Assembly: GCF_017302985.1 (NCBI RefSeq)
Contig: NZ_JAFIMU010000012.1
Coordinates: 124,001 to 188,000 of the forward strand
Direction: 5' to 3'
Length of the DNA: 64,000 nucleotides
DNA from: Corallococcus macrosporus
Lineage (GTDB): Bacteria > Myxococcota > Myxococcia > Myxococcales > Myxococcaceae
The number at the start of each line of letters is the position of its first letter. Position 1 is the first letter of the stretch. Positions 53,508 through 62,172 of this stretch are shown here, piece after piece. The position numbers and the translations under genes are program-made. A model generated the notes under the pieces. That model was not told where the DNA came from. It searched no databases and saw only the letters and a list, made by a program, of their open reading frames with translations.

Positions 53508-53567
53508 GCTGTCTTGGGGTTCCGCCGGTCCGTGCGTGACACGGACCGGCGGCCAGTCCCTGGCGGG

Positions 53568-56106: not shown

Positions 56107-57633
56107 ATGCCCCTGCCCTCCGCTGAAGCGCCCTCGCACGTGGATGTGTTGATCATCGGCGCGGGGCTGTCGGGCATCGGCGCCGCGTATCACCTGCAGG
56201 AGCGCTGCCCCACCCTGAGCTACGCCATCCTGGAGGGGCGCGGGGCCATGGGGGGCACGTGGGACCTGTTCCGCTATCCGGGCGTCCGCTCGGACTCGGA
56301 CATGTACACGCTCGGATACCGGTTCCGGCCGTGGCATGGCGGCAAGGCCATCGCGGATGGGCCGTCCATCAAGCAGTACATCGAGGAGACCGCGGCGGAG
56401 TACGGCATCGACCAGCGGATCCGCTATCACCACCGGGTGACGCGCGCCGAGTGGTCCTCCGCGCACGCGCGCTGGACCGTGGACGTGGAGGTCGGGCCCG
56501 AGCGCGTCCCCCACCGGATGACGTGTGGCTTCCTCTACACCTGCACCGGCTACTACGACTACGCGAACGGCTACACGCCCACGTGGCCCGGCACGGAGCG
56601 CTTCGGGGGCCGCATCGTGCACCCGCAGCACTGGCCCGAGGACCTGGACTACAGCGGCAAGCGCGTGGTCGTCATCGGCAGTGGCGCGACGGCGGTGACG
56701 CTGGTGCCCGCGATGGCCGGCCGCGCCGCGCACGTCACCATGTTGCAGCGCTCGCCCACGTACATCGCGGATCAGCCGTCGCAGGACGGCCTGGCCCGGG
56801 CGCTGGGGCACGTGCTCCCCCGGGGCGCGGCGTACGCGGTTTCGCGCTGGAAGAACGTGCTCCGCGGCATGTTCCTCTACAACCTCGCGCGCAGCCGGCC
56901 GGGCCTCATGAAGTGGCTCCTGCGCCTGGGCGTGCGCAAGGCGCTCGGCAAGGCGTTCGACGTCGATACGCACTTCGCGCCCCGCTACAACCCCTGGGAC
57001 GAGCGGCTGTGCGTCGCGCCGGACGGAGACCTCTTCCGCGCCCTTCGCGAGGGACACGCCTCCGTGGTGACGGACCACATCGAGTCCTTCACGGAGACCG
57101 GCCTCCAGCTGCGCTCGGGCAAGCACCTGGACGCGGACGTCGTGGTCACCGCGACGGGGCTGAACGTGAAGATTCTCAGCGGCCTCACGCTGGTGGTGGA
57201 CGGCGCGCCCGTCCAGATGTCACGGACGCTGGCGTACAAGGGAATGATGTTCAGCGACGTGCCCAACCTCGTCGCGGCCTTCGGGTACACCAACGCGTCG
57301 TGGACGCTGAAGTGCGACCTGGTGGCGGAGTACACCTGCCGGCTGCTCAACCACATGAAGCAGCACGGCTACGCGCGATGCGTGCCCCGCGTGCGCGACC
57401 CGGGAATGACGCCGGAGCCGGTGCTCGACTTCAGCTCCGGGTACGTGCAGCGCGCGCTGGACTCGCTGCCGCGTCAGGGCACGCGTGCGCCGTGGCGCCT
57501 GTACCAGAACTATGTGCGGGACCTGCTGATGATGCGCTACGGCCGCGTGGACGACGACGCCATGGAGTTCCGCGGGCAGGCGCTTCTTCCGGAAGGGAGC
57601 GCCGGCACCGGCGCGGAGGTGGCACGTGGCTGA
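56107..57633 (+). CDS. Baeyer-Villiger-type flavin monooxygenase
   Basis: This 508-residue flavoenzyme inserts one oxygen from O2 into ketones or oxidises heteroatoms using NADPH and FAD. It shows GAGLSGIGAAYHL, the second dinucleotide motif VIGSGATAVT, and FGGRIVHPQHWPED, close to the Baeyer-Villiger fingerprint FxGxxxHxxxWP. The start at ATG 56107 follows a GGAG. It is first in a two-gene unit with the next SDR and is controlled by the divergent TetR. Confidence 0.88.
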   Translation: MPLPSAEAPSHVDVLIIGAGLSGIGAAYHLQERCPTLSYAILEGRGAMGGTWDLFRYPGVRSDSDMYTLGYRFRPWHGGKAIADGPSIKQYIEETAAEYGIDQRIRYHHRVTRAEWSSAHARWTVDVEVGPERVPHRMTCGFLYTCTGYYDYANGYTPTWPGTERFGGRIVHPQHWPEDLDYSGKRVVVIGSGATAVTLVPAMAGRAAHVTMLQRSPTYIADQPSQDGLARALGHVLPRGAAYAVSRWKNVLRGMFLYNLARSRPGLMKWLLRLGVRKALGKAFDVDTHFAPRYNPWDERLCVAPDGDLFRALREGHASVVTDHIESFTETGLQLRSGKHLDADVVVTATGLNVKILSGLTLVVDGAPVQMSRTLAYKGMMFSDVPNLVAAFGYTNASWTLKCDLVAEYTCRLLNHMKQHGYARCVPRVRDPGMTPEPVLDFSSGYVQRALDSLPRQGTRAPWRLYQNYVRDLLMMRYGRVDDDAMEFRGQALLPEGSAGTGAEVARG

Positions 57634-58447
57634 GCGCATGCGGCTTCAGGGCAGGACGGCGGTCATCACCGGCGCGGCGAGCGGCATTGGCCGGGCCATC
57701 GCGGTCTCCCTGTCCCGGCGGGGCTGTCATCTGGCGCTGGCGGACGTGAACGAGGCCGGGCTCGCGGAGACGGCGGAGCTCGCGCGAGCGCCGGAGGTGC
57801 GCATCAGCCGGCACCGGCTCGACGTGTCCGACAAGGAAGCGGTGGACGCCTTCCCGGCGCGGGTGACGGCGGAGCATCCCGGGGTGGACCTGCTCTTCAA
57901 CAATGCGGGCGTCGCGCTCGGAGGCACCTTCGAACAGGTGAGCGCCGAGGACTTCGAGTGGCTGTTCGGCATCAACTTCTGGGGCGTGGTGCGCCTGAGC
58001 CGCGCCTTCCTGCCCCTCTTGCGCAAGAGCGACGACGCAAGGCTGGTGAACCTCTCCAGCGTCTTCGGCCTGGTGGCGCCACCGGGACAGGTGGCCTACG
58101 CGGCAAGCAAGTTCGCCGTCCGAGGCTTCTCCGAGGGGCTGCGCCACGAGCTGGAGGGCACCACCGTGGGCGTCACGGTGGTGCACCCGGGCGGCGTCGC
58201 GACGTCCATTGCCGCGAGCGCCCGGGTCCCCTCTGGAGCGACGGAGGAGGAAGTGAAGCGCCGCCGCAGGTCCTTCCAGAAGATGCTCCGTCTCCCAGCC
58301 GAGGTCGCGGGCGAGACCATCGTGAAGGGCGTCGAGAAGCGCGAGCAGCGGATCCTCGTCGGCATGGACGCCCAGGCGCTGGGACTGCTCGCCCGCCTCT
58401 TCCCGGTGTCGTACTGGAAGCTGCTCGCCTCGCGCCTGCGCGCGTGA
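57626..58447 (+). CDS. Short-chain dehydrogenase (with BVMO)
   Basis: This 273-residue SDR has TGAASGIGRAIA, NNAGVAL, the Ser in NLSSVFG and the YAASK active site. It starts with a GTG overlapping the monooxygenase by 8 bp (GGAGG six bases before). Acting with the monooxygenase it could oxidise an alcohol to the ketone substrate, or reduce a product. An ATG is also available 12 bases later. Confidence 0.88.
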   Translation: MAERMRLQGRTAVITGAASGIGRAIAVSLSRRGCHLALADVNEAGLAETAELARAPEVRISRHRLDVSDKEAVDAFPARVTAEHPGVDLLFNNAGVALGGTFEQVSAEDFEWLFGINFWGVVRLSRAFLPLLRKSDDARLVNLSSVFGLVAPPGQVAYAASKFAVRGFSEGLRHELEGTTVGVTVVHPGGVATSIAASARVPSGATEEEVKRRRRSFQKMLRLPAEVAGETIVKGVEKREQRILVGMDAQALGLLARLFPVSYWKLLASRLRA

Positions 58448-58453
58448 AGCCGG

Positions 58454-58912
58454 TCACACCGGTCTGCGGAAGAGGTCGCCCAGGTCGGCGGGGAGCTGTG
58501 AGGCGACGGCGGCGACCTCGTCCTCGGGGATGCGGTCTCGCACGGCGGTGAACACCGCGGTGACGACGCGGAAGGCCTGGTCGGGCTTGATGTTCAGGTG
58601 GTCCGCCACGTCGGTGATGAACTCATCGCGGCCGATCCGCTTCGCGCGCGAGGGGCCCCGGTGCACCGAGCAGGCACCCAGGATGGCGCCGATGCCGCCC
58701 TTCAGCGCCCGGAAGAGCTTCACGTCCTCGCCATCCGACAGCCGCCGGGCGAGCGAGCAGAACACCGCGCTGGCGGCCTCGCGGGCCTCCAGGCCCTGGG
58801 TGTGCATGACGGCGTCGCCCTGGATTTCGTCCAGGAAGGGTTGCAGCTCGAGCGACTCGTCGCGCTCCTTGACGGGCACGGCGTGGGTGTCGGGAGGAAC
58901 AGGCGAGGCCAT
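58454..58912 (-). CDS. DUF2267 domain protein
   Basis: This 152-residue cytoplasmic protein has the helical DUF2267 signature (EFITDVADHLNIKPDQAFRVV, VRDRIPEDEVAAVASQLPADLGDLF in words residues 95-148). The function is unknown; relatives often occur near stress genes. Its ribosome-binding GGAG lies within a 12-bp stem (see 58914-58969), so translation is probably regulated. Confidence 0.78.
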   Translation of the reverse strand: MASPVPPDTHAVPVKERDESLELQPFLDEIQGDAVMHTQGLEAREAASAVFCSLARRLSDGEDVKLFRALKGGIGAILGACSVHRGPSRAKRIGRDEFITDVADHLNIKPDQAFRVVTAVFTAVRDRIPEDEVAAVASQLPADLGDLFRRPV

Positions 58913-58913
58913 G

Positions 58914-58969
58914 GCAGCGTCTCCGAAGGTTCAGGGCCCTGCACAGGGCCGTGGTTCCGGAGACGCTGC
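58914..58969 (-). promoter_or_regulatory. 5' leader hairpin covering the DUF2267 ribosome-binding site
   Basis: Read on the minus strand, GCAGCGTCTCCG (58969-58958) pairs perfectly with CGGAGACGCTGC (58925-58914), and a second inner stem GGCCCTG/CAGGGCC sits within. The GGAG that should bind the ribosome is in the second arm, and the ATG follows one base after the stem. This could be an RNA switch or an accidental inverted repeat. Confidence 0.6.
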
Positions 58970-59055
58970 GCATGTGCCAATGCGCCTGCATCGTCCACCG
59001 GCGCCGGGAGCGCGCGGGCAGTCAGGCCACCGCCGCGCCTCCCCGGCTCCAGGCC

Positions 59056-62000
59056 CTACCCGTGCGGCACCGGCCGGGGCTCTTCATGGACGGCCCGCGC
59101 GTCGTCTCCGCCCTTCCCCTTGCCCAGCCGGTTGCCCAGCCGCGTCTTGATGCGGTCCGCGACGACGTAGAACGCGGGCACCACGAGCAGGCTGAGCACG
59201 GTGGACACGGACAGGCCGCCCAGCACCGCGATGGACATGGGGGCGCGCGTCTCGCTGCCCGCGCCCAGCGCCAGCGCCGCCGGCACCGCGGACATCATCG
59301 TCGCGGTGGACGTCATCAGGATGGGCCGCAGGCGCACCGGGCCCGCGCGCAGCATGGCCTGCATCGCGTCCGCGCCCTGCTCGCGCTGCTGGAGCGCGTA
59401 GTCCACCAGGATGATGGAGTTCTTCTTCACGATGCCCATCAGCAGCAGCAGGCCAATCATGCTGAAGATGTTCAGCGTGTTCCCCGTGACGAGCAGCGCG
59501 AACGACGCGCCCGCCACGGACAGGGGAAGAATCGTCAGCACCGTCACCGGGTGCAGGAACGAATTGAACTGCGCCCCCAGCACCATGTACGCGACGGCGA
59601 TGCCCAGGAAGAGCGCGAAGATGAGGCTGCTCATCGAGTCGCGGAACGCCACGCTCGCGCCGCCCGCCACCACGCGGATGCCGCCCGGCAGGTCCTTGCC
59701 CAGGGACTCCACCGTGGCCAGCGCCTCCTCCTGGTTCGACCCCGGCGCCACGTTGGCGAAGAGGCTGATGGCGCGCTCCCGGTCGCGCCGGGTGATGGCC
59801 TGCAGCGCGGGCAGCTCCTCCTGCGTCACCAGCGACGACAGCGGCACCAGCGAGTTGTTCGCCGTGCGGACCTTGAGCAGCGACAGGTCCTCCGGCCGCG
59901 AGCGCTGGCTCGCGAGCAGGCGCATGCGCACGTCGATGCGCCGCCCGCCGCTGCTGTACTTGCCCACGCGCACGCCGCCCACCAGCGCGTTCACCGTGGA
60001 CGCCACGGACTGGATGGGCACGCCCAGGTCCGCCGCGCGCGCCCGGTCCGGGGTGATGCGCAGCTCCGGCTGGCCCAGCTGGTAGTCCGTGTCCAGGTCC
60101 ACCACCTTGCCGGACGCCTGGAGCTGCTCGCGCAGCGACTGGCTCGCCTCCACCAGCTTGTTCCAGTCCGACCCGCGCACGCTGAACTCCACCGGGAAGC
60201 CGCGCTGCGCGGTGAAGCCCGCCTGTGACAGGTCCTGCACCACCGCACGCAGGCCCGGGTAGCTGTTGAGCTCCTTGCGCAGCACCTGCGCGAACTCCGC
60301 CTGCGACATGCGCTGATCCGCCGGCAGCAGCGTCAGGTTCATGTTCCCGGAGTTCACGGCGGAGCCGCTGCCGCCGCCGCCCACCACCACGAACACGCGC
60401 GTCACCTCCGGACGGCTGGCGACGAACGCCTCCGCGCGCTTGAAGAGGCGGTTGGTCTCCTCCAGGCTGCTGCCCACCGCCGTCTGGAGGCGCACGGACA
60501 TGCGGCCCTGGTCCTGCGACGGGACGAACTCACCCGGCAGCGCCTTGAACGCGAACGCGCTCAGGATGAGCATGGCCACCGCGACCAGCAGCACGCGCCA
60601 CGGCCGCACCAGCCCCCAGCCCAGCGCCCGCGCGTACAGCGCCTCCAGCTTGGAGAACGCCTTGTCCACCACCACGCCCACCCGGCCGCGGTGCTCGCGC
60701 GACGTCTTGAGCAGCTGCGCGCACCGCGCGGGCGCCAGGGTGATGGCCTCCACGTAGGACAGCAGCACCGCCACGCACAGCGTGACGCCGAACTGGAGGA
60801 AGAACCGGCCGATGATGCCCTTCATGAAGACGACGGGCAGGAAGATGGCCACCACCGCCAGCGTCGCCGCCAGGGCCGCGAAGGTGATCTCCGCGGTGCC
60901 CTCGCGCGCGGCGCTCACCCGGTCCTTCCCCTCCTCCGCGTGCCGGAAGATGTTCTCCAGCACCATGATGGCGTCGTCCACCACGATGCCCACGGCGAGC
61001 GCCAATCCCAGCAGCGTGAACGTGTTGAGCGTGAAGCCCAGGAAGTAGATGACGGCCACCGTCCCCAGCAGCGACATGGGGATGGCGAGCACCACGTTGA
61101 GCGTGCTGGACAGCGACCCCAGGAACACCCAGCACACGAACGCGGTGAGGATGCACGCGAGCAGCAGCTCGAATTCAATCTCGTGCACGCTCTCCTCGAT
61201 GAACTGCGTCGAGTCGAAGTTGATGGTCGCGCTCATGCCCTCCGGCAGCTCCTTCTGGAGCTCCGCGAGCTGGGCGCGCACCTCCTGGGCCACCGCCACC
61301 GCGTTCGCGCCGCGCTGCTTCTTGATGCCCATGGCCTGCGCGGGCTCGCCGTTCACGCGCGCGAGGCGGCGCTCGTCCTCGAAGCCGTCCTCCACGATGG
61401 CCACGTCGTGCAGGTACACCGTGCGCCCGTTCTCCTCGCGCACCGCCACGTTCGCCAGCGTCTCCAGGTCCAGCGCCTCGCCCATGAAGCGCACGTTCAC
61501 CTCGCGCCCCTGCGTCTCGATGCGGCCGGCGGGCAGCTCCACGTGCTCGCGCTGGAGCGCGGCGATGACGTCCGTGACCGTGAGCGCGTGCGCGTCCAGC
61601 TTCTGCGCGTCCACCCAGATGCGCACGTTGCGCTCCAGGAGGCCGCCCAGGATGACCTCGCCCACGCCGGGCACCGTCTGCAGGCGCTCCTTCACGCGGT
61701 AGCGGGCGAAGTCGCTCACCACCTGCTGGGAGAAGGGCCCGGACACGCCCAGCCACATGATGGGCTGGTCCTCCGGGTTGGACTTGGAGACCACCGGAGG
61801 GTCGATGTCCAGCGGCAGCCGGCGCTGCGCCTGGCTCACCTTGGTCTGCACGTCCTGCAGCGCCAGGTCCACGTTGCGCGACAGGTCCAGCTCGACGGTG
61901 ATGTTGGCGCTGCCCTGGCGCGCGGAGGACGTGATGCTCTTGACGCCCTCCACCTGCGTCACGGCCTCTTCGATGAACTCGACGACGTCCGACTCCACCG

Positions 62001-62172
62001 CCTCCGGGTTGGCGCCCTCCCACGACACGGAGATGTTGATGGTGGGGAAGTCCACGTCCGGGAACTGGCTGATGCCGATGCGCTGGGCCGCCACCAGTCC
62101 GAAGATGATGGTCGCCGCCATGATCATCCAGGCGAACACCGGCTTCTTGATGCAGACGTCGGTGATGCTCAT
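59056..62172 (-). CDS. RND efflux pump (AcrB/HAE1 type)
   Basis: This 1038-residue inner-membrane transporter exports drugs or other hydrophobic compounds using the proton gradient. It has the N-terminal ISQFPDVDFPTINI, the TM4 proton relay Asp pair in GIVVDDAIMVLENI (near 400), two large periplasmic loops and typical VLSYVEAITLAPARCAQLL. Length is normal for an HAE1 pump. It is last in the TolC-MFP-RND operon, overlapping the MFP gene by 4 bp. Confidence 0.93.
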   Translation of the reverse strand: MSITDVCIKKPVFAWMIMAATIIFGLVAAQRIGISQFPDVDFPTINISVSWEGANPEAVESDVVEFIEEAVTQVEGVKSITSSARQGSANITVELDLSRNVDLALQDVQTKVSQAQRRLPLDIDPPVVSKSNPEDQPIMWLGVSGPFSQQVVSDFARYRVKERLQTVPGVGEVILGGLLERNVRIWVDAQKLDAHALTVTDVIAALQREHVELPAGRIETQGREVNVRFMGEALDLETLANVAVREENGRTVYLHDVAIVEDGFEDERRLARVNGEPAQAMGIKKQRGANAVAVAQEVRAQLAELQKELPEGMSATINFDSTQFIEESVHEIEFELLLACILTAFVCWVFLGSLSSTLNVVLAIPMSLLGTVAVIYFLGFTLNTFTLLGLALAVGIVVDDAIMVLENIFRHAEEGKDRVSAAREGTAEITFAALAATLAVVAIFLPVVFMKGIIGRFFLQFGVTLCVAVLLSYVEAITLAPARCAQLLKTSREHRGRVGVVVDKAFSKLEALYARALGWGLVRPWRVLLVAVAMLILSAFAFKALPGEFVPSQDQGRMSVRLQTAVGSSLEETNRLFKRAEAFVASRPEVTRVFVVVGGGGSGSAVNSGNMNLTLLPADQRMSQAEFAQVLRKELNSYPGLRAVVQDLSQAGFTAQRGFPVEFSVRGSDWNKLVEASQSLREQLQASGKVVDLDTDYQLGQPELRITPDRARAADLGVPIQSVASTVNALVGGVRVGKYSSGGRRIDVRMRLLASQRSRPEDLSLLKVRTANNSLVPLSSLVTQEELPALQAITRRDRERAISLFANVAPGSNQEEALATVESLGKDLPGGIRVVAGGASVAFRDSMSSLIFALFLGIAVAYMVLGAQFNSFLHPVTVLTILPLSVAGASFALLVTGNTLNIFSMIGLLLLMGIVKKNSIILVDYALQQREQGADAMQAMLRAGPVRLRPILMTSTATMMSAVPAALALGAGSETRAPMSIAVLGGLSVSTVLSLLVVPAFYVVADRIKTRLGNRLGKGKGGDDARAVHEEPRPVPHG

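Follow-up and report, generated by a model that had tools for sequence, protein, structure and literature searches.

The DUF2267 gene of Corallococcus macrosporus is located on the minus strand of a stretch of 64,000 nucleotides (hereafter, the window), and its ATG start codon occupies positions 58912-58910. It encodes a protein of 152 amino acids which, according to a Pfam search, belongs to a family without characterisation, and which shows a weak match to the structure 2ysk (hypothetical protein TTHA1432; E 0.0019, 35 residues). An RND efflux gene is encoded on the same strand at 59056-62172 and ends 143 nucleotides upstream of the DUF2267 gene. A literature search combining Corallococcus and DUF2267 returned no paper, the one paper found on DUF2267 concerns, in its available text, haloarchaeal annotation, and the top titles and abstracts of broader searches contained nothing on a DUF2267 leader. 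The gene and the features associated with its leader are as follows:

58454..58912, minus strand: gene for the DUF2267 protein, 152 amino acids, with a start codon predicted to be occluded (open reading frame list; Pfam PF10025, E 5.9e-24)
58907..58978, minus strand: full extent of the predicted hairpin, which takes in the start codon (minimum free energy and centroid folds; folds of homologous leaders)
58914..58925, minus strand: 3' arm of the 12-bp stem, with the GGAG at 58921-58924 (sequence; GGAG in 43 of 43 leaders)
58935..58950, minus strand: apical stem-loop GGCCC-loop-GGGCC, variable, part of the one helix in which both partners of a pair have changed
58958..58969, minus strand: 5' arm of the 12-bp stem (sequence; inverted-repeat scan)
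58961..58974, minus strand: conserved element CATGCGCAGCGTCT, which overlaps the 5' arm and has the family-wide pattern CRTGnnCAsCnTs (motif search of 43 leaders; cross-scan; exact in 37 of 43)
58988..58996, minus strand: second conserved block GGACGATGC, at a fixed distance upstream (ACGATG-N14-CRTGCGCAGCNTCT; alignment; spacing constant in 16 of 16 Corallococcus)

An earlier note on this DNA had described a perfect 12-bp stem with an inner 7-bp stem that ends one base before the start codon and contains the ribosome-binding site. The outer stem is as described: on the minus strand, GCAGCGTCTCCG (58969-58958) is complementary to CGGAGACGCTGC (58925-58914), a single base (58913) separates the stem from the ATG, and the GGAG is placed inside the 3' arm at 58924-58921, eight nucleotides from the ATG. 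The inner palindrome, GGCCCTG/CAGGGCC (58950-58944/58941-58935), is present in the sequence, but since pairing of all seven bases would leave a loop of two nucleotides, it is predicted to fold as six base pairs with a loop of four nucleotides. The predicted structure of the minus strand exceeds the 12-bp stem, in that it contains a 14-bp stem including one G-U pair and extends beyond single bulged bases via CAUG/CAUG and GGC/GCC, with the AUG itself paired. The minimum free energy is -61.1 kcal/mol over 111 nucleotides, compared to -38.58 (sd 3.6) for shuffled sequences (z -6.26), and none of 200 dinucleotide shuffles was as stable. The suggestion that the hairpin sequesters the ribosome-binding site is borne out as a prediction, with an unpaired probability of 0.00 for the Shine-Dalgarno sequence in the window leader.

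Perfect inverted repeats with arms of at least 12 nucleotides and a spacer of 3-60 nucleotides occur twice in the window, and one of them is the DUF2267 hairpin. The other, at 53522-53552, has 13-bp arms (CCGCCGGTCCGTG/CACGGACCGGCGG) and a loop of five nucleotides, and is the longest of its kind in the window. In a stability scan of both strands (75-nucleotide stretches, step 25), the hairpin came within the top 11 of 5114 stretches, albeit not first; the plus strand also folds, as any inverted repeat does. A covariance model searched against the whole genome identified one clear copy (E 1.6e-16) and three other matches with E-values of 3.9 to 7.9, and the 111-nucleotide hairpin DNA had a single match. 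A repeated element was rejected on these grounds. A terminator of the RND gene was also considered and rejected: there is no T run, and no terminator-like site, in which a T run would come directly after a GC stem, was found in 58450-59200. Moreover, where the RND gene was found in the relatives, the distance from its end to the DUF2267 gene ranged from approximately 0.11 to 4.5 kb, and in some homologous stretches it was not found upstream within the stretch examined. The hairpin remains at the DUF2267 gene irrespective of this distance, and thus belongs to that gene.

All 16 genomes of the window's genus contain the DUF2267 gene, and at an E-value of 1e-30 it was identified in 43 of the 96 genomes of the family that were searched, representing 3 of 26 genera. 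The corresponding 43 leaders, 16 from Corallococcus and 27 from two other genera (Myxococcus/Pyxidicoccus and Citreicoccus), were compared; they are related to each other, and counts over them do not represent independent events. Paralogues (L018-L031) and two genomes of the genus Myxococcus without a match at 1e-30 were left out, and named records (L046-L064) served for gene distances only. A GGAG is located 5-16 nucleotides before the ATG in all 43 leaders, and the start of the DUF2267 gene is thus well supported. Twelve of the 16 Corallococcus genomes have four DUF2267-like matches each and the other four have three; in the window's genome, one of three further matches (36% identity) lies roughly 13 kb outside the window, at G000:C12:196295-196624. 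Among the named records, BNCN01000004.1 (L064), titled Comamonas sp. KCTC 72670, has a DUF2267 gene that is 70% identical to that of the window and an upstream stretch that is 86% identical to the RND protein, in a Myxococcaceae-like arrangement. This record looks mislabelled or mixed.

In the gene tree, with the root set on one leader from the genus Myxococcus, the Corallococcus leaders formed one clade (support 0.997), which was divided into L002-L010 (0.82), including the window, and its sister group L011-L017 (0.72), with L003 basal in the former. For the region from -70 to +10, the mean z of L002-L010 was -5.7, with eight of the nine leaders between -4.66 and -6.92 and L003 at -1.64, compared to means of -0.7 (-0.67) for L011-L017 and -0.5 for the 27 leaders from other genera. 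A strong predicted hairpin is thus the mark of one Corallococcus clade (eight of nine members of L002-L010). The Shine-Dalgarno sequence was predicted to have an unpaired probability below 0.05 in 13 of 16 Corallococcus leaders, 2 of 27 from other genera (L070 and L071) and 1 of 13 other genes in the window, a baseline chosen via a GC3/GC2 filter and a Shine-Dalgarno-like motif. In the seven sister Corallococcus the Shine-Dalgarno sequence is predicted to be paired, yet the overall fold is no better than in the shuffles. Similarly, pairing of the 5' block with the start region gave a duplex that was better than shuffles (p<0.05) in all nine members of the clade, three of the seven sister leaders and 1 of 27 from other genera. 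Two distant leaders of the Citreicoccus type, L033 and L034, have strong folds (z -2.5 and -3.4), and their Shine-Dalgarno sequences are predicted to be half open (0.5).

RNA thermometers of the ROSE-like and FourU types contain a hairpin in the 5' leader that masks the ribosome-binding site. The DUF2267 hairpin resembles them in this respect, as both the GGAG and the AUG are hidden in the predicted fold, and the earlier note had suggested a temperature- or ion-sensitive switch. However, the GC-rich, near-perfect stem is predicted to be far too stable: the window leader remains closed from 20 to 85 °C, with an unpaired probability of 0.000 at 55 °C and 0.009 at 85 °C. Furthermore, no Rfam family matched at or above its gathering score in 57000-61000, and the loop is not conserved, being the most variable part of the hairpin in the 16 Corallococcus leaders. 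These results provide no support for a sensing role; a hairpin acting as a thermometer appears unlikely from the modelling, a switch that senses ions or a ligand is conceivable, and a response to temperature or ions, taken together, is in our judgement very improbable.

Covariation among relatives had been proposed as a check of the structure. In an alignment of the 16 Corallococcus leaders on which the structure of the window, itself one of the sequences, was imposed, none of the 21 pairs in the helix that contains the Shine-Dalgarno sequence had changed on both sides: eight were invariant, eight had changed on one side and five departed by unpaired cells only. Such changes were confined to the 8-pair apical helix, in which three pairs had changed on both sides, and RNAalifold recovered none among 15 pairs. 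The shuffle controls were mildly favourable, in that 12 of 500 shuffles reached the covariation score and 29 of 500 had as many pairs changed on both sides. However, a control structure slid by +1 column gave four such pairs compared to the three observed. The near clade is too similar for its covariation to be informative, and as support for a conserved RNA structure the covariation is weak at best.

These data bear on a true leader-RNA switch, in which the promoter would be located upstream (for example including GGACGATGC), every DUF2267 mRNA would carry the hairpin, and a factor acting in trans, such as RNase III cleavage, a helicase or RNA chaperone, a small RNA or a protein, would open it in response to a signal. 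Consistent with such a switch, the 21 outer pairs are intact in seven of the nine members of L002-L010, with one broken in L008 and four in L003, and three of the eight apical pairs have changed on both sides. The long helix also resembles leaders that are opened by RNase III: in the available text of PMC5371410, the ribosome-binding sites of the Escherichia coli adhE and lambda cIII leaders are described as occluded in an RNA structure that this enzyme opens. Occlusion is common to these leaders and, as a prediction, to that of DUF2267, while opening by RNase III is known for adhE and cIII. However, the Shine-Dalgarno helix lacks changes on both sides, Rfam gave no family match in the region, the loop varies, and the 5' arm is conserved also where the hairpin is absent. 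On balance, we consider a switch of this kind unlikely, although it deserves more weight than a sensor.

The conservation of the 5' arm has another candidate explanation. The block CRTGCGCAGCnTCT is invariant except for R and n in all 16 Corallococcus leaders, even where its pairing partner has changed. Without any information on the hairpin, a motif search selected the same block in Corallococcus and a similar one, CRTGnnCACCRTGA, in the other genera; the joint motif of all leaders was placed at -53 to -72. The search forces one site per leader, and the result was checked by cross-scans with plain shuffles and by an exact count. With the matrix from the other genera, the block was the highest-scoring position in all 16 Corallococcus leaders (mean 6.7 versus -3.3 +/- 3.9 in shuffles), and the Corallococcus matrix identified the block in 19 of the 27 leaders from other genera (1.3 versus -3.0 +/- 3.8). 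Exact matches to CRTGnnCAsCnTs at -75 to -50 were found in all 16 Corallococcus leaders and in 21 of 27 others (the misses are L070, L072 and L074-L077); the whole window has 12 matches on both strands. Since the element also occurs in genera where the hairpin is mostly absent, it is independent of the latter, and we infer from the sequence comparison that the 5' arm is part of a conserved promoter- or operator-like element. For the same reason, the conservation of the arm does not count as evidence of an RNA switch.

A second block upstream of the element, at a constant distance in all 16 Corallococcus leaders, gives the arrangement a resemblance to two-box promoters. In Corallococcus there are 13 nucleotides between GATGC and CRTG, and in 19 of the 27 other leaders the element follows 10 nucleotides after a TGAWGS-like block. 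The scan for promoters, which was limited to the sigma-70-like type, identified none in 58450-59200. The element itself has a partial dyad (TGnnCA), which suits the binding site of a regulator as well as a promoter box. In five genomes of the genus Myxococcus, the two-block pattern was matched, with at most two mismatches, 17 to 33 times per genome, compared to 1 to 6 times for a reversed control, and the DUF2267 site was the best match in four of these, while it tied with two other places in G063. The pattern was also more common than the reversed control in the 16 Corallococcus genomes, and among the matches listed, from 13 of these genomes, the DUF2267 leader was exact and the other places had one or two mismatches. 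The excess may be due to coding bias or to other true sites.

It could be argued that the site acts at the DNA level: a regulator would bind to both arms, as inverted copies of its target sequence on either side of the promoter, and the RNA hairpin would be incidental. The partial dyad symmetry of the conserved 5' block is consistent with this, as is the fact that the start region, when read as its reverse complement (CATGG-CAGCGTCT), comes close to the element CATGCGCAGCGTCT. However, the second copy overlaps the GGAG and the ATG, which are kept for another reason (the former in 43 of 43 leaders), and it is mostly missing in the other genera, where the element stays (a duplex with p<0.05 in 1 of 27, with partial pairing in L070 and L074). 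A DNA-level site also leaves the apical stem unexplained, and we regard it as improbable, slightly more so than the RNA switch.

Alternatively, the RTG of the element might serve as the start codon of a leader peptide or of a longer DUF2267 protein, translation of which would open the hairpin. The RTG occurs in the same place in all 16 Corallococcus leaders and is in frame with the DUF2267 gene in six of the seven sister genomes. The frame relative to the DUF2267 gene nevertheless differs between species: in all nine genomes of the near clade it is out of phase and runs at least 85 nucleotides past the DUF2267 start, and the variable positions do not coincide with third codon positions. An upstream reading frame was rejected, as the frame is not kept among the Corallococcus leaders, and translation from the RTG is thus a very improbable explanation.

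In the four members of L002-L010 that were tested, the position of the RNA 5' end has a strong effect on the predicted fold. Modelled at 30 °C with 5' ends between -120 and -52, L002, L005, L007 and L009 had a closed Shine-Dalgarno sequence (0.00-0.01), and a 5' end at -48 opened it to 0.26-0.42, compared to a mean of 0.48 for the 13 window genes. Position -48 lies just past the element, which ends at -49 in L002. Of three sister genomes tested for such a release, L013 was noisy and L015 and L017 showed no step, their longer RNAs (5' ends from -120 to -72) having unpaired probabilities of 0.05-0.28. Among six leaders from other genera, L070 and L033 were mostly closed at nearly all 5' ends, and the rest were mostly open with no matching step.

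A similar arrangement is known from phage T4, where the available text of PMC3014915 and PMC2988022 describes that the Shine-Dalgarno sequence, the AUG or both are sequestered by a hairpin in the long upstream transcripts of gene e, soc and I-TevI, and that the DNA for the 5' strand of the gene e hairpin contains the promoter of a short transcript that is translated. As in these read-through locks, the Shine-Dalgarno sequence and the AUG of the DUF2267 gene are predicted to be paired in the long RNA, and as in gene e, RNA without the 5' arm is predicted to be open in all four members of the near clade tested, with no clear step in the three sisters. At the place of the gene e promoter, the DUF2267 leader has the conserved element (exact in 37 of 43), with no sigma-70 match. 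Unlike the T4 genes, DUF2267 is a gene on a bacterial chromosome, and its promoter and short transcript are suggested by conservation and folding.

Taken together, the reading that we prefer, with a probability of roughly 0.4, is that the DUF2267 gene has a promoter- or operator-like element whose copy in the transcript locks read-through mRNA, as in T4 gene e. The upstream region holds a conserved two-block element, and in one Corallococcus clade the block that overlaps the 5' arm is the reverse complement of the stretch with the Shine-Dalgarno sequence and the start codon. RNA begun upstream of the element, for example by read-through from the RND gene or another upstream gene, would carry both arms and fold into the 21-pair helix, which would hide the GGAG and the AUG such that the DUF2267 protein is not made. 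RNA begun just downstream of the element would be without the 5' arm, and its start site would be about as open as that of an ordinary gene. The choice of transcription start would in this manner serve as a translational gate. The role of the element as promoter or operator, the transcription start site and the effect on translation are here inferred from conservation and predicted folds. Because the 5' arm is conserved as DNA also without the hairpin, the hairpin probably silences stray upstream transcripts and is unlikely to be a thermometer. The spacing between the two blocks, which differs between Corallococcus and the other genera, counts against the lock, as do the negative sigma-70-like scan of 58450-59200, the partial dyad, the missing release in the sister genomes and the mostly closed leaders L070 and L033.

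A more far-reaching and doubtful version of the read-through lock, which we nevertheless consider possible, is that the start region drifted to become the reverse complement of the pre-existing element, giving rise to a chromosomal lock born within the clade, in which only RNA begun at the element can be translated. If so, the choice of transcription start would become an on/off gate for translation, and present-day relatives would display the stages by which such a lock is made: an element that mostly has no hairpin in the other genera, weak pairing in the sister Corallococcus, an intermediate in L003 and the full lock in the clade of the window. The direction of change along these stages, gain or loss, is suggested by this comparison. 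More generally, the arm of a hairpin may owe its conservation to a role as DNA, and conservation of an arm is thus by itself no proof of an RNA switch.

L070 and L074, which belong to the Myxococcus/Pyxidicoccus group, carry CATGGCCATCGTCT, which likewise pairs with their own start regions. The pairing of the element with the start region is thus not strictly confined to one clade, and these two leaders possibly contain a parallel, weaker hairpin.
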